Shown piece after piece: positions 40,588 to 52,725 of a stretch of 64,000 bases of DNA (positions within the stretch are counted from its first letter, which is position 1; the number at the start of each line of letters is the position of its first letter). Made by a program: the position numbers and the translations under genes. Source of the stretch: Pseudomonas brassicacearum (GTDB lineage: Bacteria; Pseudomonadota; Gammaproteobacteria; Pseudomonadales; Pseudomonadaceae); NCBI RefSeq assembly GCF_000585995.1, contig NZ_CP007410.1, positions 1,143,430 to 1,207,429 of the forward strand. The letters run 5' to 3'. The notes below the pieces were generated by a model. The model had not been told where the DNA came from, ran no database searches, and saw only the letters and a program-made list of their open reading frames with translations.

Positions 40588-40607
40588 GTAGTTGCAGATG
40601 CAACTAC
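40588..40607. promoter_or_regulatory. MarR-type operator upstream of the E1 and marR-like genes
   Basis: A perfect palindrome GTAGTTGCA-ga-TGCAACTAC in the 173-bp divergent gap, plus a further half-site TTGCAACTA at about 40639. The core TTGCAnATGCAA recurs at 42292-42305. MarR proteins typically bind such dyads. Confidence 0.65.
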
Positions 40608-42291: not shown

Positions 42292-42305
42292 ATTGCAAAT
42301 GCAAT
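42292..42305. promoter_or_regulatory. MarR-type operator between the truncated-E1 and GST genes
   Basis: ATTGCA-aa-TGCAAT, a perfect 14-bp palindrome sharing TTGCAnATGCAA with 40588-40607. It lies in the 95-bp divergent gap between the two genes. Confidence 0.6.
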
Positions 42306-42331
42306 GAAATCCACCTGAAATGGAGTTCCTC

Positions 42332-42970
42332 ATGACCACGGCTTGCGCCATCACGCTCTATACGGCTGATACGCCCAACGGGCAGAAAATCAGTATTTTC
42401 TTGAAAGAGGCAGGCATCGATTACGACGTGGTGAGGCTCAACCTGTCTGAAGGGCGACAGCATTCACCGCAATTCCTCGCCATAAACCCGAACGGGAAAA
42501 TCCCTGCCATCGTGGATCACCAGGCCGGGGTCTCGGTGTTCGAATCCGGCGCCATCCTGGGTTACCTGTCGCAGAAATACGCATGCCTGCGGCCTGATAC
42601 ATCTGCCGAACAGCTTGCGGTTCAACAGTGGCTGTTCTTCCAAGTGGGCGCCATCGGCCCGATGCTGGGCCAGCTTTGGTGGTTCCTGCATGGCAGCACT
42701 ACGCAGAATGAGGAAGCGATCGCTCGTTATCGCAAAGAGGCCCTGCGCCTGTATGGCGTGGTGGACAAGCAACTGGCCGAGCGCAGTTACCTGGCGTGCA
42801 ATCAGTATTCCATCGCGGATATCGCAGCGTTTCCATGGCTGCGCACCTTTGAGGAGTTGGATTTGGATATCACTTCTTTCACTCATGTGCGGCGCTGGCT
42901 GGAAACGATCGAGGCGCGTCCTGCCGTGCAGGCTGGGCTTGCCCAGTCTCGAGATACGCCTTTCGGTTGA
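42332..42970 (+). CDS. Glutathione S-transferase, Nu-class (YfcG/YghU-like)
   Basis: A 212-residue protein. N-terminal thioredoxin-like domain with LYTADTPNGQKISIFLKEAG (residues 9-28), INPNGKIPAIVDH and the glutathione-contacting ESGAILGYL. The C-terminal helical domain carries SIADIAAFPW. The TPNGQK loop is typical of Nu-class GSTs with disulfide reductase activity. The ATG at 42332 has GGAG eight bases upstream. Divergent from the truncated E1 gene and probably co-regulated with it. Confidence 0.92.
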   Translation: MTTACAITLYTADTPNGQKISIFLKEAGIDYDVVRLNLSEGRQHSPQFLAINPNGKIPAIVDHQAGVSVFESGAILGYLSQKYACLRPDTSAEQLAVQQWLFFQVGAIGPMLGQLWWFLHGSTTQNEEAIARYRKEALRLYGVVDKQLAERSYLACNQYSIADIAAFPWLRTFEELDLDITSFTHVRRWLETIEARPAVQAGLAQSRDTPFG

Positions 42971-43167
42971 TGCCTTCCTGCTCCGGAACGAGCCGCCTGA
43001 TTGCAAGAAAAGGGCGGCTGCGCCAGAGAGTTGAGTTCCACAAGTCTCGCTTCATTCTGGTCATCGGGTGTGTAGTGGTTATTTGGCTTTACTACGAGTT
43101 GATACTTGGGTTGAATGCTTCCGATAACGCGACAACAGGAAAACCAATACAAAAAGTAAATCCATAA
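42970..43167 (+). CDS. Possible small single-helix membrane protein before luxR
   Basis: An open frame of 65 codons whose ATG overlaps the GST stop (TGATG). Basic N-terminal half, then one strongly hydrophobic segment (FILVIGCVVVIWLYYELILGL) and a polar tail. No ribosome site is visible and no homologue is recognised. It ends 14 bases before luxR. It may be real and co-transcribed with luxR or a chance frame. Confidence 0.3.
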   Translation: MPSCSGTSRLIARKGRLRQRVEFHKSRFILVIGCVVVIWLYYELILGLNASDNATTGKPIQKVNP

Positions 43168-43181
43168 AAAAGGGAGTTTTT

Positions 43182-43910
43182 ATGAACGGTCAAGCTGTGA
43201 AAGGCAGGCGAGTCATAAATACAGGGTCTGAATTGGATGAAAGACTCAAGAGTACATTTGAAAAATACCTGCGGCCGCTGGTGGGTTGCCATTATGCTTA
43301 CTTCGTCATGTATAAAGGGCGAGAGGTAAAGCCGAGGATCTTTTCCAACTATCCCAAACGTTGGCTCGATGTGTATAAGGCCGAGAACTATCACCTTATC
43401 GATCCGGTCATCAAGCACGGCCTGAAATGCATAGCCCCTTTCTTCTGGCATGAAGCGCTTGAGTCCAAGGCATCAGATCAAGGGCAGGCGGTTTTTGCCT
43501 CTTCGGAAAAATTTCAAATATCGGACGGGTTTACGTTCAACTTGCATGATGCCAATGGCTTGTTCGCTGCACTGAGTATCAGCAATACCGAGCGCCGCAA
43601 GGACTTCCAGCAAACCATGATGCGCAGGGCGGCAGAGATCCAGATGACGCTCATTCAATTCCAAGACAGATTGACTGATTGTTTTTCCTTGAGCGAATTG
43701 TTTCCGGAGTTGACTGAGGCCGGACTGTCGGACAGGGAGCTTGGTGTATTGAAATGGGTGGTCATGGGCAAGGCCTACAGCGAAATTGCCGTCATTCACG
43801 CCATCTCCGTGCGCACCGTGAAATTTCATATGGCGAACATTGTAGACAAACTGTGCGTCTGCAACGCCAAGCAAGCCGTCTACAAGGCTGTCAGCCTGGG
43901 ATTGGTCTGA
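43182..43910 (+). CDS. LuxR-family acyl-homoserine-lactone receptor and activator
   Basis: A 242-residue LuxR protein. The autoinducer-binding domain has the invariant ligand residues W61, Y65, D74, P75, W89 and G116 (YPKRWLDVYKAENYHLIDPV). The C-terminal GerE-type HTH reads LSDRELGVLKWVVMGKAYSEIAVIHAISVRTVKFHMANIVDKL. A GGGAG site precedes the ATG. It is convergent with luxI, and the last 31 bases overlap it. It is the expected receptor for the LuxI product and the activator at the two lux boxes (44643-44694). Confidence 0.93.
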   Translation: MNGQAVKGRRVINTGSELDERLKSTFEKYLRPLVGCHYAYFVMYKGREVKPRIFSNYPKRWLDVYKAENYHLIDPVIKHGLKCIAPFFWHEALESKASDQGQAVFASSEKFQISDGFTFNLHDANGLFAALSISNTERRKDFQQTMMRRAAEIQMTLIQFQDRLTDCFSLSELFPELTEAGLSDRELGVLKWVVMGKAYSEIAVIHAISVRTVKFHMANIVDKLCVCNAKQAVYKAVSLGLV

Positions 43911-44563
43911 AACTGCCCGTGGCCATGCTGGCCTGGCAGCTCAACCGTTGCGGTCCCAGGCACGCCACGCCGCTGCTTTGATTCTATCGTTTGTTTAAGG
44001 CTCCAGTCGTTTTCAGGGCGCACCGGCATATTGAGCAGCAGGACCTTTTCACCGGGTGAAGCTTCTCCGGTATCCAGGACCTCATAGTGCCAACCAGCCC
44101 TGAGGACGATGCGCGACATGGCTTGGCTGACCACTGTGATGATCGAATCCAGGTTCTGTCGAGCGGCATGGCCGTGCATGGCCAGAAGCAGCATCTCGGT
44201 CAACGGTGCGTGGCTCAATCCCATGGCTCGGGAACGGGTCTTATCAACAAAAAAACGACTGGATTCGGCAATCGACTGGTCTTTAGGAAGTTTGCACTTG
44301 AAGAAGTTTCGAAACGGACCTTCGACCATATAAGGGTTCAGTGTATTGATCAGGCGTAAACTACTCAGTGGACGCCCTGCATAAAGACCTACCAGATAAG
44401 TTGCACAGGCGTTGTCATATTCATCAATCTCTCTTCCATGCTGCGTCGTGACGCGCCAGTCAAGTCGGTCGGAAAAAACTTCTTTCCTCAATCCATACAG
44501 GTCACCCAATAACTCTTCTGAGGCGTCTGAATAATTGATGGCATGAAAGCTGACCTTGTCCAT
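43880..44563 (-). CDS. LuxI-family acyl-homoserine-lactone synthase
   Basis: A 227-residue autoinducer synthase that makes an acyl-homoserine lactone from S-adenosylmethionine and an acyl donor. All classic invariant residues are present: R26, F30, W36, E45, D47, D50, R70, F84, E100 and R103 (LRKEVF, LDW, ESSRFFVD). The C-terminus is about 15-20 residues longer than usual and is the part overlapping luxR. The acyl chain cannot be predicted. A lux box lies 79 bp upstream of its ATG, so positive autoregulation is expected. Confidence 0.94.
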   Translation of the reverse strand: MDKVSFHAINYSDASEELLGDLYGLRKEVFSDRLDWRVTTQHGREIDEYDNACATYLVGLYAGRPLSSLRLINTLNPYMVEGPFRNFFKCKLPKDQSIAESSRFFVDKTRSRAMGLSHAPLTEMLLLAMHGHAARQNLDSIITVVSQAMSRIVLRAGWHYEVLDTGEASPGEKVLLLNMPVRPENDWSLKQTIESKQRRGVPGTATVELPGQHGHGQFQTNPRLTAL

Positions 44564-44642
44564 ATGTCCTGCAATGTCCTTGGGTATTTGAATACTGAAT
44601 CGTTAGCGCGCGCCGAGCATGGCGATATGAATCAAGGAAAGC

Positions 44643-44662
44643 AACTGTACCTAGATACAGAG
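44643..44662 (-). promoter_or_regulatory. lux box 1, facing luxI
   Basis: AACTGTACCTAGATACAGAG has the CTG-N10-CAG architecture of LuxR-type operators. It is 79 bp upstream of the luxI start codon. Its left half matches the inverse of lux box 2. Confidence 0.72.
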
Positions 44663-44674
44663 CCCAAATAAAAG

Positions 44675-44694
44675 GGCTGCACCCAGGTACAGTT
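44675..44694 (+). promoter_or_regulatory. lux box 2, facing rohP, with adjacent -10
   Basis: GGCTGCACCCAGGTACAGTT has CTG-N10-CAG. Its inverse, AACTGTACCTGGGTGCAG, shares AACTGTACCTrGrTrCAG with box 1. A TATAGA -10 candidate at 44719-44724 puts the box near -46, suitable for LuxR activation of the roh operon. The two boxes plus AGCCC/GGGCT between them form a long inverted repeat (44641-44697). Confidence 0.72.
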
Positions 44695-44796
44695 GTTAGA
44701 CAATAAAACAATGTTAACTATAGATCAGGATTTATCCACGGCGCCGTCAGCCCGCCCAGTGGGATAAATATCTTTAGCACCTATAGGAATAACAAT

Positions 44797-45972
44797 ATGA
44801 GTGTCATGACCCGTCTGGATGATAAAGAAGATATCACCCAACATGAAATTTCTGCCTTGAAGACGCGCTTCAATCTCGCTGACGCCCATACCCATCAGGA
44901 CCAAAGTGTCACCCAGCGAGAGATAGTCAACCGTCTCCCCGAACTGTGGTATCGCGCTCAAGGCCAAAGCCAGTATCAGAGCGAGCAGGAATTCATCCAG
45001 GCGTTTTTCACCTTCCATGGACAAGAGCATGCGCTCAAGCGCCATGATGAGATTTACCTGGTTTACGCGGCCTCCATTGCGATGCACATCACCGCGACCT
45101 ACCTGCGCAAACGCAACATGAGCGTAGGGTTGATCGAGCCTTGCTTCGACAATCTGCATGATCTGCTCAAGCACATGGAAGTGCCGTTGACGCCGCTGGA
45201 CGAGGCCCTTCTGCAATCTTCGACGGACGTCTATGCCAAGCTTCAGTCGGCGGCGGCGAATGTCGATGCGATTTTCCTGGTAGACCCGAACAACCCGACC
45301 GGTACCAGCATGTTCGCCGAGGGCGCCGACACCTTTGTGGAAGTGGCTCGTTATTGCAGGGACCACGGCAAGCTGCTCATCCTGGACTTTTGCTTCGCCG
45401 CGTTTTTCAAAGCAGCCGGGGGCAGTCGCGTTGATGCCTATGCCATCCTGGATGACATCGGTACCCAGTACATCATCATGGAGGACACGGGAAAAACCTG
45501 GCCGCTGCAGGACACAAAATGCGCCACGATCATGTCCAGCCGCGCCCTTAACGCTGACATCTATAGCATCGTGACAAGCGTATTGCTGAACGTCTCGCCC
45601 TTCATCCTGAATGTCGTGACTCAATACATCCGCGATAGCAGCGAGGACGATTTCGAGTCGGTGCGTTCGATACTTGATGTTAACCGTGCCGCCGCTCGAC
45701 GCCATCTGCAGGGCAGTTTTCTGAGTTATCTGACGCCCATGGTCGAGACCAGTGTCGCCTGGTTTGAAATCCTCCGTGAAGACGTCTCTGCCGATGATTT
45801 ACAGGCGTACCTGATGGCGTACGAAGTCTATGTCCTGCCGGGTAAGTACTTTTATTGGAGCCAACCGCAGGCGGGGCAGAAATTCATCCGCCTGGCATTG
45901 GCCCGCAAACCCGAGGAGTTCGAACAGGCGGTCGAAACCATTGCCCTGGCATTGGAGAACTATCATGGCTGA
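44797..45972 (+). CDS. rohP: PLP-dependent L-arginine oxidase/hydroxylase, RohP-like
   Basis: A 391-residue fold type I PLP enzyme resembling RohP/MppP, aminotransferase-like enzymes that use O2 to oxidise L-arginine to 4-hydroxy-2-ketoarginine. Visible are the N-terminal NLADAHTHQDQS segment (26-37) that in this group closes over the active site, DPNNPTG (163-169), the PLP-N1 Asp D197 in ILDFCF, and the Schiff-base lysine K233 in EDTGKTWP. AGGA lies eight bases before the ATG. It is the first gene of a five-gene overlapping operon behind a lux box. The call rests on family resemblance plus operon content. Confidence 0.82.
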   Translation: MSVMTRLDDKEDITQHEISALKTRFNLADAHTHQDQSVTQREIVNRLPELWYRAQGQSQYQSEQEFIQAFFTFHGQEHALKRHDEIYLVYAASIAMHITATYLRKRNMSVGLIEPCFDNLHDLLKHMEVPLTPLDEALLQSSTDVYAKLQSAAANVDAIFLVDPNNPTGTSMFAEGADTFVEVARYCRDHGKLLILDFCFAAFFKAAGGSRVDAYAILDDIGTQYIIMEDTGKTWPLQDTKCATIMSSRALNADIYSIVTSVLLNVSPFILNVVTQYIRDSSEDDFESVRSILDVNRAAARRHLQGSFLSYLTPMVETSVAWFEILREDVSADDLQAYLMAYEVYVLPGKYFYWSQPQAGQKFIRLALARKPEEFEQAVETIALALENYHG

Positions 45973-46483
45973 GGCTTCCATTGCGGTTATCGACGCCACC
46001 GTTTTCATGGGCATGCACCACAGCGACCCAGAGGTACGGGCCCAGTCCCTGGGCTTTTTCGGTGCGTTCTATTCGCGTCAGGTAATGATGAGCTTCGGTC
46101 AGATTGGTATTTGCGATGCCATTATCTGGAAAAAGAGCCGGCACTTGCAGGACGTCTACTACCCATTCATGGATGTCCTTCACACGGACATGGATATCCA
46201 GCGCCAGGGTTATTGCAACAAGGTCCTGAAACGCGCCTGCCTGGAGCCGGACTGGGCACGCCTGAGCGTGGAAAAGCGATTGTTGGTTGCTCATGTAGTT
46301 GAGCACCAACTGCCTTTTTACACTCATGACGACTCGCTGCGTGAGCTGGGTCTACTCAAGCCATTCTTGAAAACGTTTCCTGCGTCGGCTTCGTCATCCG
46401 TATTTCCTGAAAACCTTCAGCGTTTGTACGAGCAATCCATGGAAATGACCATTGGAAAGGAGGACTTCCAGCATGTCGGGTAA
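45965..46483 (+). CDS. rohQ: DUF6190-like protein of the azomycin-type operon
   Basis: A 172-residue soluble protein of a family found in biosynthetic clusters (DUF6190-like). It opens with SIAVIDATVFMGMHHSDPEVR, recalling the Asp-containing first strand of PIN-like folds, followed by CDAIIWKKSRHLQDVYYPFMDVLH. In the azomycin pathway the corresponding step is cyclisation of guanidinoacetaldehyde to 2-aminoimidazole. Equating this gene with rohQ comes from its place between rohP and rohR. The ATG at 45965 has GGAG upstream and overlaps rohP by eight bases. Function is inferred. Confidence 0.65.
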   Translation: MAEASIAVIDATVFMGMHHSDPEVRAQSLGFFGAFYSRQVMMSFGQIGICDAIIWKKSRHLQDVYYPFMDVLHTDMDIQRQGYCNKVLKRACLEPDWARLSVEKRLLVAHVVEHQLPFYTHDDSLRELGLLKPFLKTFPASASSSVFPENLQRLYEQSMEMTIGKEDFQHVG

Positions 46484-47276
46484 GCATATCTATGTACCGT
46501 TGATCACGCCCCTCGATGATCAGGCGCGCGTCTGCGAAGCCAGCGTGCACCGGTTGCTGCATAGCTCGCGGCCGTTTGTCGATGGTTACATTCCGTGCCT
46601 GACTTCCGGTGAAGGTTGGCGACTAGGAAAGCGGGACTGGCAACGCATGTTGGAGCTGACGTTGGCGCACGCCCAGGATAAGACCGTCATCGCCGGTATT
46701 GAACGCGCGACGACGGCCGAGGTAATCGAATATGCACGGTTGGCGCAAGACCTTGGGGCCCAGGCGGTAATGTTCACGTCGCCTTTCGCTCCAGGCACAA
46801 GCCAGCAAGACATGATCGATCATTACCGGGCGGTCCACGACGCCACGTCGCTGGACATCTTCGTCTACAACGAGTCTGCACTGTCCGGCAATGAGAAAAG
46901 TTTCGACACCTTGATGGCCATCGCCCAGTTACCGAGGGTTATCGGCATCAAGGACTCACCTTCCCAGCCGCGTGTCCAAAGTGAAATCGAGCGCCTGCGC
47001 AACGAGGGGCTGGATTACTTCATCGGTTGGGAAATGCTGCTGGCCAGGGAGTTGGAGTCCGACGGTAATGTCGTGTCGTTGGCCAACTTGGAGCCAGCGC
47101 TTTGCCGGCTGGCAATCGGTGCTCGACAAACAATGGTCGGCGGACTGGTGGAGGCGCTCAATGACCGTTTTGAACTGGCCGCAGATGATTGGTACGCCCA
47201 CGTCAAAAAGGAACTCAAGGCGCGTGGCATCATCAGCACCGACCGTGTCTTCGCAGAGCAGGAGGTCATGGCATGA
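46473..47276 (+). CDS. rohR: Dihydrodipicolinate-synthase-like aldolase, RohR-like
   Basis: A 267-residue class I aldolase of the DapA superfamily. Schiff-base lysine K160 in VIGIKDSP and the conserved Tyr Y132 in FVYNESALSGN are present, with LTSGEGWRL replacing the usual GTTGE loop. In the azomycin pathway RohR performs a retro-aldol cleavage of 4-hydroxy-2-ketoarginine to guanidinoacetaldehyde and pyruvate. A GGAGG-type site precedes the ATG at 46473, which overlaps rohQ by 11 bases. It differs clearly from the DapA-like protein at 61947. Confidence 0.8.
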   Translation: MSGKHIYVPLITPLDDQARVCEASVHRLLHSSRPFVDGYIPCLTSGEGWRLGKRDWQRMLELTLAHAQDKTVIAGIERATTAEVIEYARLAQDLGAQAVMFTSPFAPGTSQQDMIDHYRAVHDATSLDIFVYNESALSGNEKSFDTLMAIAQLPRVIGIKDSPSQPRVQSEIERLRNEGLDYFIGWEMLLARELESDGNVVSLANLEPALCRLAIGARQTMVGGLVEALNDRFELAADDWYAHVKKELKARGIISTDRVFAEQEVMA

Positions 47277-48130
47277 GTGACTTGCAGAAAGCACTGTTCC
47301 TGGCGAATCGCGCTTGCATCAAGCAGCTCAAGCCATTGGAAAGCCATATCCTGGCCTTCGAGCGTGATTGGATCGAATCGACCATCCTCAAGACGCGGAC
47401 CGCCAATCCGCCGACTGATCTCGCCGCGTTACGCAAGCAACTGGCTGAACTGGTGGAGATGGACCGCAGCGACGTCCCCCCCAGTGCTGCATACGTGAGC
47501 GAACACATGGGCCTCGACGAATTCAAGATCCTGGTACAGGAGTTCGCCCTGGATGGTTTGACCGAGGCGCAGGTTTTTTATCACCTCATGCCCCGGCTCA
47601 GCCTGGCCGCGCAAATGCCGATGCTGCGCATGATGATCGACGAGTTCGGTTCCGGTAACCTCAAGCGATCCCACACCACGCTGTACATCGACCTGCTCAA
47701 CGAGTTGCAAATGCCCACCGACCTGGCCTTCTACATCGACGTTAACGCGCCGGCCGGGTTTTCGTTTCCCAACATGTTCTGCTGGTTGACGATGAGGGCG
47801 GATGACCCGTCGTATTTCGCGGGTGTCATCACTTACTTCGAAACCGTCGTGCCATTCTTTTTTGAATGCTACACGTCGATCTGCTCGCGTTTACAGATCC
47901 AAGCCCACACTTACTATTCCGAGCATGTCCACATTGATGTCTTTCATGCAATTGAGGGCCAGCGCCTGCTCAAAGCAATGGACATGGCGGGGGACCTTGA
48001 CCCAGTCAAGGCGTGGGAGGGGATCTGCATGGGGCGCGATATTACCAACGCCGCGTTTGATGCGGCCGTCGATAAAGCGAGGCGCCAGCAGTACTTCAAT
48101 AAGGAGCGAATGATTGAACGAGCCATCTGA
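47273..48130 (+). CDS. rohS: Haem-oxygenase-like diiron N-oxygenase, RohS-like
   Basis: A 285-residue protein of the haem-oxygenase-like diiron oxidase (iron-containing redox enzyme) family. Candidate iron ligands follow the family pattern: E90 in VQEF, E124 in IDEFG, H134 in RSHTTLY, then H218, D222 and H225 in EHVHIDVFHA. RohS oxidises the amino group of 2-aminoimidazole to a nitro group, giving azomycin. GGAGG lies upstream, and the ATG overlaps the rohR stop (ATGA). Family call is firm. The substrate is taken from the operon. Confidence 0.83.
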   Translation: MSDLQKALFLANRACIKQLKPLESHILAFERDWIESTILKTRTANPPTDLAALRKQLAELVEMDRSDVPPSAAYVSEHMGLDEFKILVQEFALDGLTEAQVFYHLMPRLSLAAQMPMLRMMIDEFGSGNLKRSHTTLYIDLLNELQMPTDLAFYIDVNAPAGFSFPNMFCWLTMRADDPSYFAGVITYFETVVPFFFECYTSICSRLQIQAHTYYSEHVHIDVFHAIEGQRLLKAMDMAGDLDPVKAWEGICMGRDITNAAFDAAVDKARRQQYFNKERMIERAI

Positions 48131-48350
48131 ATTCTATCGCCCAGGCACGTTCGCTGTCGTCATCGACGACCAACACTTTGAAGTGCCGCATGCCTGCCCA
48201 CACCGCGCAGGATGGTTGGAGCACGGGGTGATCAATCAGCAGCGCAAAAGCATCACCTGTCCCTTGCACTTTTCGGTGTTCAGCCTGGAAACGGGCGAGC
48301 AACTCAGTGGGCCGCCTTGTGGGCGTCTTGAGGTAAAGCGCCTGAGTTAA
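48114..48350 (+). CDS. rohT: Rieske [2Fe-2S] ferredoxin, probable electron donor to RohS
   Basis: A 78-residue minimal Rieske protein. The cluster ligands are C28 and H30 (CPH) and C49 and H52 (CPLH). The start is a TTG at 48114, with AAGGAG seven bases upstream and 17 bases of overlap with rohS. An ATG at 48110 is out of frame. It probably reduces the diiron centre of the N-oxygenase. Last gene of the operon. Shorter than typical Rieske ferredoxins of about 100 residues. The symbol is assigned by gene order. Confidence 0.75.
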   Translation: MNEPSEFYRPGTFAVVIDDQHFEVPHACPHRAGWLEHGVINQQRKSITCPLHFSVFSLETGEQLSGPPCGRLEVKRLS

Positions 48351-48367
48351 CGGCGCGGTATGACTGT

Positions 48368-48397
48368 CGGCAGGCTCGGGCGCGCCCGGGCCTGCCG
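48368..48397 (+). terminator. GC-rich hairpin after the roh operon
   Basis: CGGCAGGC and GCCTGCCG arms with an inner CGGGCG/CGCCCG stem, 18 bases after the rohT stop. No T run follows, so it is a terminator-like hairpin of moderate confidence. Confidence 0.5.
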
Positions 48398-48515
48398 AAT
48401 TGACCAATATCCTCGCTTGGAATATCCCGGGTAAAGTGTTCCTGCCAGTTGCGCTTCCAGTCTTCTCGGACTTGAAGGTCACCTCGTATTCCGCATGGGC
48501 TTCGTGGGTAAGGTT

Positions 48516-48597
48516 GAAGCCCTTGCTGTTGAGCCGCAGGCACTCCATTATCTTCCTTAAGGACTTGCCGATGATCGACTTCAACAACAAAGGCTTC
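48516..48597. repeat. Imperfect inverted repeat marking two divergent small ORFs
   Basis: TCAACAACAAAGGCTTC on the plus strand (48581-48597) and TCAACAGCAAGGGCTTC on the minus strand (48516-48532) match in 15 of 17 bases. Each lies just after an ATG. The plus ORF is the 46-residue gene at 48571. The minus ATG at 48548 opens a frame with a similar NSKGF N-terminus whose end is unclear. A CCTTAAGG palindrome (48555-48562) between them supplies an AAGGA site to each. Confidence 0.4.
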
Positions 48598-48711
48598 TTA
48601 AACTCAAGCAAAACGACGAATACGCCGAACGGCAAAGTGAAGTTCGAGTTCACCGGCAAGACCGCAATTGTGGAAGTCTCCAAGGTGATCTCCAAACACC
48701 TCCTGACCTGA
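48571..48711 (+). CDS. Small protein of unknown function, 46 residues
   Basis: ATG at 48571 with AAGGA nine bases upstream. The protein reads MIDFNNKGFLNSSK... and ends VSKVISKHLLT. It is polar and basic with no signal or membrane segment. Its C-terminal 26 codons are conserved at 28313-28393, with silent substitutions that support real coding. Both copies lie just downstream of accessory modules (roh operon, Tae4 pair). I do not recognise the family. Confidence 0.5.
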   Translation: MIDFNNKGFLNSSKTTNTPNGKVKFEFTGKTAIVEVSKVISKHLLT

Positions 48712-48750
48712 TCGGCAACTCAATGCCCATCGCCAATCCGCTGTGGGCAC

Positions 48751-49167
48751 TCAGGGCTCCAACGCCGGGCCCTTCAACTCGATCTGGTTGCCGTCCGGAT
48801 CGAAGCAATAGATCGACCAGCCTTTTCCTTCCGCGCCATAGCGCATCTGGGCTTTCTCAACGCTCAGGCCGGCGGAAGTCAAATGAGCGAGAAGGGCTTG
48901 TTCATCGAACGGTTCGATACGCAGGCAGAGGTGATCGACGTTGTGCCCTTGCTTCCCGGGCGCCGGCCCACCCTCGAGACCGAGGGGGCCGTCGACAGCA
49001 ACCAGATCGATCATCGACACACCGGTGCTCAGATGAAGCATGCCTAGATCGTCCCGGCGCTTCTTGAGCTCGCAACCGAGCACCGATGTGTAGAAAGCGA
49101 GGCTACGTTCAAGGTCTTTTACACGCAGGACGATGTGGTCGATACGTTGGATCGTGAAGTTCCGCAT
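48751..49167 (-). CDS. VOC-family (glyoxalase/dioxygenase fold) protein
   Basis: A 138-residue vicinal-oxygen-chelate protein. Paired beta-alpha-beta-beta-beta modules start IQRIDHIVLRVKDLERSLAFYTSVLGCE and VDHLCLRIEPFDEQALLAHL. Candidate metal ligands are H11 in IDHIVL, the His in VDHLCL and the Glu in GNQIELKGP. The family includes glyoxalase I, fosfomycin-resistance and extradiol enzymes. This sequence does not decide which. Monocistronic. An AGGAGG-like site (CCAGGAGGCC) precedes the start. Confidence 0.92.
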   Translation of the reverse strand: MRNFTIQRIDHIVLRVKDLERSLAFYTSVLGCELKKRRDDLGMLHLSTGVSMIDLVAVDGPLGLEGGPAPGKQGHNVDHLCLRIEPFDEQALLAHLTSAGLSVEKAQMRYGAEGKGWSIYCFDPDGNQIELKGPALEP

Positions 49168-49398: not shown

Positions 49399-49911
49399 TT
49401 AGCCGATGAACCTTTCCATCAAACGCAAACGCAGTTCTGGCTTGTCTGGCCTGGGCCCGATATCGGTCCAACCATGATGACTGTAAAACTGTGCCGCCCT
49501 TGGGTTCGTCTCGCTCACCGACAATCTCATCCGGTCGCACCCCAGACTGGCAAGAAAATGGGTCGCATAAGCCAGCAGCAACTTCCCGGCACCGCGTGAT
49601 CGCCACTCGGGAACGAGATAGAAAAAGTGTATGTAGCCCACCAAGGGGGCTTTCTTTAGCAGTGACATCTCTATCTGACCCACAATCCGTGTTTCATCCC
49701 AGACATGGACAATGCTGCCAGGAATCACGGCTGCCTTTTCTCGAAGCGACTCAAGGTAATGCCGCTCCCCATCGGGACCACCCAACTGTTGTGCAGAACC
49801 GAACGCACAAAGCAGCATGTCGTTGAAGAAACGAACGCAGACGTCGCTGTCCTGATCAAGATTTATGGGATGAAAGCTCAATAGAGCGTCTGACGTGCTT
49901 CCCCTGACCAT
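49399..49911 (-). CDS. GNAT-family N-acetyltransferase
   Basis: A 170-residue acetyltransferase. The acetyl-CoA loop reads LVPEWRSRGAGKLLLAYATHFL (motif A, about residues 98-119), preceded by IVGQIEMSL...GYIHFFYL and followed by LSVSETNPRAAQFYSHHGW, typical of GNAT motif B. The substrate is unknown. The 231-bp gap to the VOC gene (49168-49398) holds no gene or clear signal. Confidence 0.9.
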   Translation of the reverse strand: MVRGSTSDALLSFHPINLDQDSDVCVRFFNDMLLCAFGSAQQLGGPDGERHYLESLREKAAVIPGSIVHVWDETRIVGQIEMSLLKKAPLVGYIHFFYLVPEWRSRGAGKLLLAYATHFLASLGCDRMRLSVSETNPRAAQFYSHHGWTDIGPRPDKPELRLRLMERFIG

Positions 49912-50002: not shown

Positions 50003-50581
50003 TTGAACAACCGATCAGCAGCGGACGCCACCCTCATGCAAAAACAAGAGCAGGACAAACTCCTCCAAGCCCTAAAAAGCCGATTCGAACAAAACACTCA
50101 TCGCCATCCAGACATTCCGTGGGCTGATGTCCAGTGCAGGCTGGAGAGCAACCCCAACGCCTTGAAATCCCTTCAGGCTATGGAAGCCACCGGCGGCGAG
50201 CCAGACGTGATCGGTCTCGACCCGAAGACCGGCGTTGTCACCTTCTGCGATTGCGCCAAAGAAAGCCCAACCGGCCGCCGCAGCCTCTGCTACGACCGCG
50301 CGGCCCTGGACGCTCGCAAGGAAAACAAGCCAACAGGCAGCGCAGTTGAAATGGCCGAAGCGATGGGCATCGCCCTGTTGACGGAAGACCAGTACCGAGC
50401 ATTGCAGGAACTGGGTGAGTTCGATGCCAAGACTTCCAGCTGGCTGGCAACGTCCCCTGAGCTTCGCGCCCTCGGCGGGGCGATTTTCGGTGACTTTCGT
50501 TATGGCCGGGTGTTCGTTTACCACAATGGTGTGCAGTCGTATTACGCGGCGCGAGGGTTTCGCGGGTTGCTGCGGGTTTGA
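50003..50581 (+). CDS. DUF4256 family protein
   Basis: A 192-residue protein matching the DUF4256 family: EATGGEPDVIGLDPKTGVVTFCDCAKESPTGRRSLCYDRAALDARKENKP, GIALLTEDQYRALQ and FGDFRYGRVFVYHNGVQSYYAARGFRG. Function unknown. The start is probably the TTG at 50003 with AAGGA ten bases upstream. The ATG at 50036 lacks a ribosome site but would still keep the whole conserved part. Monocistronic. Confidence 0.87.
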   Translation: MNNRSAADATLMQKQEQDKLLQALKSRFEQNTHRHPDIPWADVQCRLESNPNALKSLQAMEATGGEPDVIGLDPKTGVVTFCDCAKESPTGRRSLCYDRAALDARKENKPTGSAVEMAEAMGIALLTEDQYRALQELGEFDAKTSSWLATSPELRALGGAIFGDFRYGRVFVYHNGVQSYYAARGFRGLLRV

Positions 50582-50605
50582 GCCCTCAAAAACACCGCTA
50601 ACCCC

Positions 50606-50737
50606 GTGGCGAGGGAGCTTGCTCCCGCTGGGCTGCGCAGCAGCCCCAAAGCCATCCACCACGGTGTGCCAGGAAGAGCGGCATCAGCAGGTTTTACGAC
50701 TGCTGCGCAGCCGAGCGGGAGCAAGCTCCCTCGCAAC
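50606..50737. repeat. Inverted pair of GTGGCGAGGGAG-type REP elements
   Basis: GTGGCGAGGGAGCTTGCTCCCGC and its inverse with inner CTGCGCAGC stems, between convergent genes. Confidence 0.88.
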
Positions 50738-50777
50738 GGTGATAGCGTACGGTCGAAGGAAATGCGGCAGAAGCCCC

Positions 50778-52286
50778 TCACTCAAAAACCAAAACCTCAC
50801 CCCCCTTGGCCTCAACCATCTCGCTAAATTCCGGCAGCCGCGCGACAAACTCCGTCTCGAACGCCAGATACCGATCCTGCGCCGCCAAGTAACGAATCTC
50901 CGGCTTTACCCGCGCAATATCCTTGGAAGACAGCTTCACCACCTCATGGCTGCGCTGATTCCAGAACCAGGCCAGGGTGTGTGTGCCAAACGTATTGCTG
51001 CTGTAATTCCACACCCACCAATCCCCATGCCCCCGGGCAACATGAAGCTGCCCATGAAACGTGCGCAACGTGATGACCTGCTTGGGCTGCGTGACCAGCA
51101 GGCGCGTGTCCTGGCGTAGTTCACTGCCGAAGCCGTCCAATGTCGCCTTCGTCGCAGTGCCAGTCATGAAGTTGAAGCGCCACGCCAACAACACCGTTTC
51201 CTGATAACCCGAATGCTCAACGTTCTGCCGCGCGCCTTCGCTGAACAGTAAAACCTCGTCACCCCCCAGGTACGCGGTTGAGGCCCGCAGCTTATAGGCC
51301 TCAGCGGGCATCGGTTTGGCGACGAAGGCCTGGTGCGGCGATTCTTGATTCCAAGTCCAGCAGCGCGGGCCATTGTGCTGCATGAACAGCAAGCGACCAG
51401 GGCCGACGGGCAGGATCGTCAGTTCATCCGCGTGCTCGAAAATCACCTCGCTGCTGTCCGCCGTGATCCGCCAGATCCGCGTCACATGCTCGGGTTCGTA
51501 AATACGCTGGCGTTCGAATATCGCCGGGCCTACCACCACGCAGGGCTGTTCAAACTCCGGCCACTGCACCCCGGCAGGCCCGAACGCCGCGATCTCATCG
51601 CCTTGCCGAATCTCGTATTGGTAACGGTCATCCGCACTGTAATCGCCGCGCATCACCCGACGTTTCCACAGGCTGCGCTGGGCATCGGCATCGATGAGCT
51701 GCAAATCCGCGCCGTCCACGCCGTCGGTGCGGTGTTCGAGCATGTCCTGCTCGGCGGGCGGCCATTGGTTGTAATCAATCAGAAAGCACAACCACTGGTC
51801 TTCGTCCTGCTCGGTGATGGCGGCCCAACCGTTGCGGTAGTTGTATTCGTGCACATAGGTGGAGCCGGGGTAGTCATGGACTTCTTGCAGCCACTTCACC
51901 TTGCCGCGTTTGGGTTTGGCCGGTTTGCGTTCAGCGGCGGCAGGCTTGGGCGGCTCGATCAACCCCGGCGTGAACCTCGGCTCAGCGCGCTGTTTTTCCC
52001 AATACTTGGCAAACGCCTCGCGCTGATCGGTGGGGACAATGACCGGCCGGTAATCATCGCCACCGGCGTCCAGGTTCCACAAGTCATAACCCTGACCCGC
52101 CAACACCGGCGCCAGCGCCTCGAAGCAGACCTCGGGCATCTCATTGGACAACTCATCCAACAACGCCTCGAATTCCGGCCCGGCAAACACGCCGATGTCG
52201 GGATAGTAGTGCTGAAACAGCGCAAGCAACTCGCCGCCCGGTGTTTTCCAATCGATATGAACCAACGGATCAAATTGCGATTGCAT
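50778..52286 (-). CDS. Hypothetical protein with a DUF6630-like N-terminal region
   Basis: A 502-residue soluble protein. Residues about 30-90 (FEALLDELSNEMPEVCFEALAPVLAGQGYDLWNLDAGGDDYRPVIVP) resemble the DUF6630 family. A basic linker follows (PKPAAAERKPAKPKRGKVKW, near 115-135). The rest has repeated Trp-rich beta-type segments (WRITADSSEVIFEHADELTILPVGPGRLLFM) that may form a propeller. No signal or membrane segment. The ATG at 52286 is chosen over an upstream frame opening. Function unknown. Confidence 0.72.
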   Translation of the reverse strand: MQSQFDPLVHIDWKTPGGELLALFQHYYPDIGVFAGPEFEALLDELSNEMPEVCFEALAPVLAGQGYDLWNLDAGGDDYRPVIVPTDQREAFAKYWEKQRAEPRFTPGLIEPPKPAAAERKPAKPKRGKVKWLQEVHDYPGSTYVHEYNYRNGWAAITEQDEDQWLCFLIDYNQWPPAEQDMLEHRTDGVDGADLQLIDADAQRSLWKRRVMRGDYSADDRYQYEIRQGDEIAAFGPAGVQWPEFEQPCVVVGPAIFERQRIYEPEHVTRIWRITADSSEVIFEHADELTILPVGPGRLLFMQHNGPRCWTWNQESPHQAFVAKPMPAEAYKLRASTAYLGGDEVLLFSEGARQNVEHSGYQETVLLAWRFNFMTGTATKATLDGFGSELRQDTRLLVTQPKQVITLRTFHGQLHVARGHGDWWVWNYSSNTFGTHTLAWFWNQRSHEVVKLSSKDIARVKPEIRYLAAQDRYLAFETEFVARLPEFSEMVEAKGGEVLVFE

Positions 52287-52435
52287 CACGCCTGTCTTCC
52301 CTGTGATTTCCCTGGGCGCCATCTTAGCCGCACCCCTACCGAAAAGGACAATCACACCCCCCACCATCTGATCGTTCCCACGCGGAGCGTGAGGAACGAT
52401 CGAACGCTGCCGAACTTAAGTAAACGAATAATCCC

Positions 52436-52588
52436 GTGGCGAGGGAGCTTGCTCCCGCTGGGCTGCGCAGCAGCCCCAAAGCGATGGGCACAGTCCACTG
52501 TGGGAGCGAGCTTGCTCGCGATAGGGGCAGGTCAGGCACAGCGATGGCGGCTGGTATATCGCTATCGCGAGCAAGCTCGCTCACACAG
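52436..52588. repeat. Mosaic REP cluster: one GTGGCGAGG element plus a GTGGGAG doublet
   Basis: A half-element of the GTGGCGAGGGAG family (52436-52490, with its inner CTGCGCAGC stem but no closing arm) directly abuts a complete inverted GTGGGAG doublet (about 52499-52588). Confidence 0.85.
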
Positions 52589-52725
52589 GTATTCTCGGCG
52601 CCTTCAAGTCTTCGCCGGACCTGCCGCTATCGGTATAACGATTTTTACCGATCCATCGATTGGCTTTGCAATACCGTTGCTTTCCGGCAATTAATTGGCA
52701 AACGCACGATAAGAGAACGTAGCGC

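Follow-up and report, generated by a model that had tools for sequence, protein, structure and literature searches.

Is the operon for azomycin (2-nitroimidazole) in Pseudomonas brassicacearum controlled by the quorum-sensing genes that lie beside it? This question is raised by a stretch of 64,000 nucleotides of contig NZ_CP007410.1 (assembly GCF_000585995.1, positions 1,143,430 to 1,207,429 of the forward strand), here called the window, which almost certainly comes from strain DF41. An earlier note, made from the sequence alone, had described in it luxR, luxI and five overlapping genes, rohPQRST, and had proposed azomycin synthesis under the control of an acyl-homoserine lactone (AHL). All seven genes were found where the note had placed them, with domain matches that agree (Table 1). 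Judged from the sequence, the LuxR/LuxI pair encoded beside it most probably activates the DF41 azomycin operon, and the lux boxes described below make AHL control of roh likely. Statements from articles cited by PMC number refer to the parts of those articles covered here.

Candidate lux boxes and the LuxR/LuxI pair

The gap between luxI and rohP contains two dyads that resemble lux boxes. In both, the stronger half lies toward the gene that the box would serve, and the centre of box 2 is 112 bp before the rohP ATG. When the genome (G000) was scanned with the 18-mer AACTGTACCTAGGTACAG, allowing up to 3 mismatches, four matches were obtained. Three of them fall on the two roh boxes and the fourth is located approximately 60 bp before pdfI, a second luxI gene; the reversed control gave one match. 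Across loci, boxes were counted as 16-mers with a score of at least 12 within the 400 bp that precede the RohP anchor. Two boxes were detected at each locus with luxR and luxI (11/11) and one at each locus with luxR only (9/9). At the same score, no box was found at the lux-less loci, be they proteobacterial (0/11) or actinobacterial (0/8, chosen for the trees and box counts); L018, whose contig begins at rohP, was left out.

The AHL-pocket residues of LuxR (W61, Y65, D74, P75, W89 and G116) are invariant in all 18 aligned LuxR proteins, and we take them to match W57, Y61, D70, P71, W85 and G113 of TraR. Similarly, the R, F, W, E-D-D, R and E-R positions, which we assume to be the conserved set of LuxI, are kept in 12/12 aligned LuxI proteins. 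The reading frames of luxR, luxI and rohPQRST are all intact, and dN/dS (the ratio of nonsynonymous to synonymous substitution rates) was 0.02 to 0.14 in comparison with two relatives (L130 and L131), indicating purifying selection on the seven genes. In the model that we favor, LuxI would make an AHL, and LuxR bound to this AHL would activate luxI at box 1 and rohP at box 2. A -10-like stretch approximately 20 bp downstream of box 2 would place the box centre near -40, which suits a class II activator. By eye, an xxxAAT hexamer is present at a spacing of 20 after the box in 8 of the 9 luxR-only loci (the exception is L127).

Several points weigh against activation by this pair. GTTAAC, the DF41 hexamer where a -10 element is expected, is a poor match. 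With up to 3 mismatches, all 20 roh-bearing genomes have at least one box match, including G287 and G171, in which no lux genes lie beside roh (controls, 0 to 2 per strand). Since the box consensus was drawn from the same loci, it is the lux-less loci and the genome scan that serve as true controls. Furthermore, high density by itself does not turn the roh operon on, because no azomycin was made in LB medium by Pseudomonas syringae DC3000 and B728a, two strains that have the cluster (PMC12713392). In the portion of the literature covered, we found no expression, binding or AHL data for the roh-luxRI locus. The literature search returned no paper joining azomycin, 2-nitroimidazole and quorum sensing, and AHL control of the roh operon was met neither via the Psyr locus tags and the AhlR regulon nor under the terms looked up in the covered parts of PMC5458577 and PMC3658600.

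It is unlikely, in our view, that LuxR is instead an EsaR/ExpR-type regulator, which would repress roh without AHL and be relieved by the signal. The genes luxR and luxI are convergent and overlap tail to tail by 31 bp, presumably like EsaR/EsaI pairs; dyad boxes fit repressors as well, and three close database relatives of LuxR (71 to 81% identity) are automatically named ExpR. However, an EsaR-type box is expected over the core promoter, whereas box 2 lies upstream of the putative -10, as far as the start position can be placed from the sequence. Moreover, relatives at 52 to 53% identity are named PsyR, and the top solved structure for LuxR, 5l07, is entitled a quorum-sensing activator. AhlR (Psyr_1622), the positional counterpart of LuxR in B728a, is described as an activator with AHL (PMC7691447).

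We likewise doubt that roh is controlled through cross-talk by PdfRI with RfiA. The DF41 genome has two luxI genes, and the neighbourhood of the second (pdfI, at 3.57 Mb) comprises luxI, a LuxR gene, an RhtB-like gene, an RfiA-like LuxR gene and a gene for a resistance-nodulation-division (RND) pump. This layout matches the four-gene layout pdfR/rhtB/pdfI/rfiA of DF41 (PMC10928948), and the roh-linked luxRI is therefore a separate system. Like PcoRI and JesRI, PdfRI/RfiA is an AHL LuxR/LuxI pair too, with a similar box before luxI, and its presence in the same genome puts two AHL systems in one cell. However, PdfR belongs to a lineage separate from the roh-linked LuxR in a tree that included 19 background LuxR proteins and 10 of 39 database relatives. 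Moreover, the pdfI box has 3 mismatches to the consensus, itself derived from roh loci, and the roh boxes have 1 and 2. An exclusive clade of all roh-linked LuxR proteins was rejected by the approximately unbiased (AU) test (p 8e-5), which was ill-posed, because database PsyR rows of unknown context fall among them.

The roh enzymes and three kinds of roh locus

The azomycin assignment in the earlier note was right, and production is already proven: deletion of rohPQRST in DF41 abolishes azomycin, and 2-nitroimidazole was detected by liquid chromatography-high-resolution mass spectrometry (PMC12713392, J Bacteriol 2025). The DF41 cluster of that study comprises the same five genes with the same luxRI neighbour. 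The note had also held that the cluster was defined in Streptomyces cattleya; instead, in the covered parts of the sources, the azomycin cluster is that of S. eurocidicus, and Hedges and Ryan 2019 are credited with the in vitro work.

A search against characterized Roh proteins, which the note had suggested, linked the window directly to solved structures. RohQ is identical to PDB 9c5w and 9oq8 ("RohQ") at 171/171 aligned residues, and RohS is identical from Met1 onward to 9pfx ("PbrRohS"); differences between these entries and the DF41 proteins are confined to residues ahead of the native start. The best PDB match of RohP is 6c3a (1e-121; record title, uncharacterized), which we take to be S. 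cattleya RohP, followed by MppP (5dj1; 1e-60). Its best NCBIfam match is also MppP, with 165 bits, under the cut-off of 450. The catalytic lysine for pyridoxal phosphate (PLP), Lys233, is invariant in 17/17 aligned RohP proteins. RohR matched DapA and NanA structures and has its Schiff-base lysine, Lys160, in GIKD, and RohT contains the Rieske [2Fe-2S] motif C-x-H...C-x2-H. By their structure matches, the PLP and diiron enzymes thus fall in the expected families rather than in unrelated ones. From rohP to rohT, every gene overlaps the next roh gene. According to the chemistry in the literature, RohP oxidizes L-arginine, RohR cleaves the RohP product in a retro-aldol reaction, RohQ closes the ring to 2-aminoimidazole, and RohS converts the amine to the nitro group; RohT may serve as electron donor to RohS.

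The Streptomyces roh clusters (S. eurocidicus L035 and L067) have five matching genes in the same order, at 35 to 52% identity, but lack luxR, luxI and a box. Two separate RohP-type loci, each with matching roh genes, are present in four Streptomyces genomes: S. eurocidicus (L035/L067), S. albireticuli (L033/L068), S. olivoreticuli (L052/L080) and Streptomyces sp. Root431 (L040/L057). Two contigs of metagenome-assembled genomes labelled Candidatus Doudnabacteria (L066) and Peribacteria (L075) carry RohP and a RohR-like open reading frame (ORF) without other roh genes; misbinning, truncation (the L075 contig ends soon after) or a different pathway are possible explanations. In P. amygdali ICMP 3918, RohR and RohS are encoded in one open frame of 558 codons (L008, 3463-5136).

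Among 398 Pseudomonas species genomes, RohP was detected at 1e-80 or better in 20. Ten of these carry both luxR and luxI, eight luxR only, and two neither gene. In the luxR-only layout, luxR precedes rohP in the same orientation; six of the eight genomes have no luxI anywhere, and G080 and G394 have a distant luxI. The 80 named roh loci kept out of 109 comprised 7 with luxR and luxI, 69 with neither, and 4 with luxR alone. Named loci of the luxR-only kind are those of P. graminis DSM 11363 (L010), P. entomophila 4A7 (L013), and Pseudomonas sp. MWU15-20650 (L011) and URIL14HWK12:I12 (L012). PMC12713392 states that luxRI is adjacent to roh "in all cases", which does not hold across the genus.

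In the RohP tree, from which L128 and L129 with broken rohP were omitted, the lux-linked loci (18 rows) group in a single clade (100/100), inside which the luxR-only loci (7 rows) form a clade of their own (100/100). In the LuxR tree, the luxR-only group joins LuxR from two luxRI loci (93/88). Loss of luxI would be the simpler history, since taking luxI out of luxR(+) luxI(-) rohP(+) gives the luxR-only layout. The AHL-pocket residues are kept in 8/8 aligned luxR-only LuxR proteins, and these regulators could therefore answer AHL from foreign cells. It is very improbable that the luxRI neighbourhood reflects chance or hitchhiking, with roh under another regulator, for although lux-less roh clusters exist and azomycin was detected in planta only with an oomycete present (PMC12713392), box number tracks regulator type across 20 lux-linked loci and the lux-linked RohP proteins are a single clade.

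In two luxR-only species, rohP is interrupted (L101/L128 from G117; L102/L103/L129 from G080), and their other roh genes are single frames. By eye, the end of the gene upstream of rohP resembles a multicopper oxidase in L014, L015, L016 and L020 and a glutathione S-transferase (GST) in L021 and L132; a weak GST match (38 bits) was obtained for L132, and none is listed for L021.

The P. syringae-related locus L006 has the DF41 gene order without the GST gene, and its LuxR and LuxI are 53% and 54% identical to those of DF41. By this gene order, Psyr_1625 of B728a would presumably be aceE2. Scott and Lindow (2016, Molecular Microbiology) reportedly described a small AhlR regulon in B728a, said to include Psyr_1616-1620 and Psyr_1625. 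The stretch Psyr_1622-1614, with ahlI/ahlR and Psyr_1616-1620, is the one displayed for B728a in PMC12713392.

The neighbouring marR-aceE block

BLAST comparison with five other roh loci revealed that collinearity begins at approximately 37,800 and not at 43,182. The additional genes are aceE2, marR, aceEC and the GST gene (Table 1). AceE2 is the third full-length AceE in the genome (the other copies are 61% and 54% identical) and has the thiamine diphosphate (ThDP) domain with what we take to be its motif, GDG...NCN. In contrast, AceEC lacks the ThDP (PP) domain and corresponds to no more than residues 462-877 of E. coli E1. Within 7 kb of rohP, marR and aceEC were found at 19/19 lux-linked loci with usable flanks, aceE2 at 17/19 and the GST gene at 13/19; L008, with a contig edge at luxR, was left out. 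At the same score limits, the four genes were found near roh at 0/12 lux-less proteobacterial loci, three of which (L016, L018 and L019) offer little upstream sequence; weak GST matches occur in the lux-less L132 and L051. When 29 genomes were searched at E<=1e-60, the GST was detected in two, that of the window and G010, and both of these carry roh. Since L009 and L133 carry aceE2-marR-aceEC on the other side of roh, the link between block and operon survived rearrangement.

The palindrome TTGCAnnTGCAA is present upstream of marR at 29/31 loci and of aceEC at 30/31 (2 with one mismatch); in this count and in the aceEC tree, L184 was classed as roh-less, but its genome, G171, does contain a roh, unlinked and lux-less. 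In DF41, one site lies between the divergent aceE2 and marR and the other between the divergent aceEC and GST genes, so that all four could be controlled by one MarR. The only place in the genome that matches an extended 15-mer without mismatch is the site in the aceE2/marR gap. A genome-wide signal of MarR sites was not found: at up to 2 mismatches, the 15-mer gave 51+51 matches and the control 57+67.

Downstream of rohT, a glyoxalase gene (48751-49167) and a GNAT gene (49399-49911) were rejected as cluster members, being absent from the fetched flanks of the other 18 lux-linked loci. In G205, G039 and G280, which have no linked roh, the glyoxalase gene is kept beside aceEC. Several short ORFs in 50415-52600 have translations in which identical peptide strings recur on the two strands, and by eye this resembles repetitive extragenic palindromic (REP)-type sequence. 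Scanning the window for Rfam families and tRNAs gave no matches.

Table 1. Genes and candidate regulatory sites of the azomycin locus (window positions)
Feature	Position	Strand	Support or remark
luxR, AHL-binding regulator, 242 aa	43182..43910	+	PF03472 7.8e-30, PF00196 (GerE) 8.4e-14
luxI, AHL synthase, 227 aa	43880..44563	-	PF00765 5.8e-43
lux box 1 (putative), CTGTACCTAGATACAG, luxI side	44645..44660	.	15/16 to CTGTACCTAGGTACAG; 0/200 shuffles equal it
lux box 2 (putative), CTGCACCCAGGTACAG, rohP side	44677..44692	.	genome scan, cross-locus scan
rohP, O2/PLP-dependent arginine oxidase, 391 aa	44797..45972	+	PF00155; PDB 6c3a
rohQ, cyclodehydratase, 172 aa	45965..46483	+	DUF6190 (8e-60)
rohR, DapA-like retro-aldolase, 267 aa	46473..47276	+	PF00701, DHDPS family
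rohS, haem-oxygenase-like diiron N-oxygenase, 285 aa	47273..48130	+	Haem_oxygenas_2
rohT, Rieske ferredoxin, 78 aa, TTG start	48114..48350	+	PF00355
aceE2, full-length pyruvate dehydrogenase E1, 889 aa	37830..40499	-	PDB 1l8a over 9-887
palindrome TTGCAGATGCAA, putative MarR operator, aceE2/marR gap	40592..40603	.	
marR-family regulator, 150 aa	40673..41125	+	PF12802 4e-12
aceEC, AceE-like, middle and C-terminal domains only, 366 aa	41136..42236	-	GTG-start ORF extends to 42314
palindrome TTGCAAATGCAA, putative MarR operator, aceEC/GST gap	42293..42304	.	
glutathione S-transferase, 216 aa	42320..42970	+	GST_N/GST_C

Is this block tied to azomycin? That aceEC is exclusive to roh was rejected: at a minimum of 300 bits, aceEC was detected in 65/398 genomes, 18 of the 20 with roh and 47 of the 378 without. 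We give slightly better than even chances to the reading that aceE2-marR-aceEC is an older neighbour or landing site unrelated to azomycin. In addition to the roh-less species, it is favored by G171, in which aceEC lies approximately 2 Mb from a lux-less roh; in G212, aceEC and roh are on different contigs. In DF41, the block has a higher G+C content than lux-roh, consistent with lux-roh having arrived later, and in G039, the block is present with 57 bp in place of GST-lux-roh (approximately 42307-48748). However, the linkage holds at all 19 lux-roh loci, even the rearranged ones, and the GST gene shares the aceEC gap with its palindrome. Moreover, G205, whose AceEC is 97% identical to that of DF41, retains the GST start and approximately 156 bp of rohT (L174, 8716-8871). 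This deletion scar shows that loss of roh need not take the block with it. In the aceEC tree, which was computed without L185, 11 rows without linked roh fall among or beside roh-linked rows (5 changes, of which 4 or more are forced). This pattern fits a larger ancestral unit that lost GST-lux-roh repeatedly; repeated gain at one site is possible.

A bolder reading, which we put forward tentatively and think possible rather than probable, is a unit with two switches. LuxR-AHL would turn on rohPQRST, and MarR, sensing azomycin or a reactive intermediate, would turn on aceE2, aceEC and often the GST gene, protecting the producer. Pyruvate dehydrogenase would then become a candidate for the target of azomycin in aerobes, or for the place of its activation. 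Relatives without roh would retain the protective half as a defence against azomycin-making neighbours, and luxR-only lineages would make azomycin on foreign AHL. The argument for protection comes from its plausibility, from the linkage and from the operator-like sites that the genes share. A role for a GST could be understood from the glutathione adducts that reduced 2-nitroimidazoles form, and one for a pyruvate enzyme from the pyruvate released in the RohR step. In the literature searched, we found no report of a MarR-aceE-GST protection module near roh and, in its covered part, no self-protection gene of an azomycin-making Pseudomonas; the only azomycin-resistance enzyme met there was NnhA of a Mycobacterium. 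Among the matches listed, as far as their text was covered, no paper linked azomycin to pyruvate dehydrogenase or aceE. The main text of PMC12713392 does not mention pyruvate, aceE, glutathione, self-resistance, immunity or MarR.

Implications for azomycin-producing pseudomonads

The earlier note had presented the coupling of luxRI to the azomycin genes as one not known to be described. It had been anticipated, since PMC12713392 has luxRI beside rohPQRST and proposes regulation by a quorum signal. The azomycin cluster and its luxRI neighbour in DF41 are thus already known, and the original claim adds little to what is published. What the present analysis adds are the named boxes, the distinction of this luxRI from PdfRI, and the luxR-only lineages, which offer natural contrasts for the question of AHL control. 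Furthermore, the conserved MarR-aceE2-aceEC-GST block would be a new candidate for how an aerobic producer lives with a nitroimidazole.

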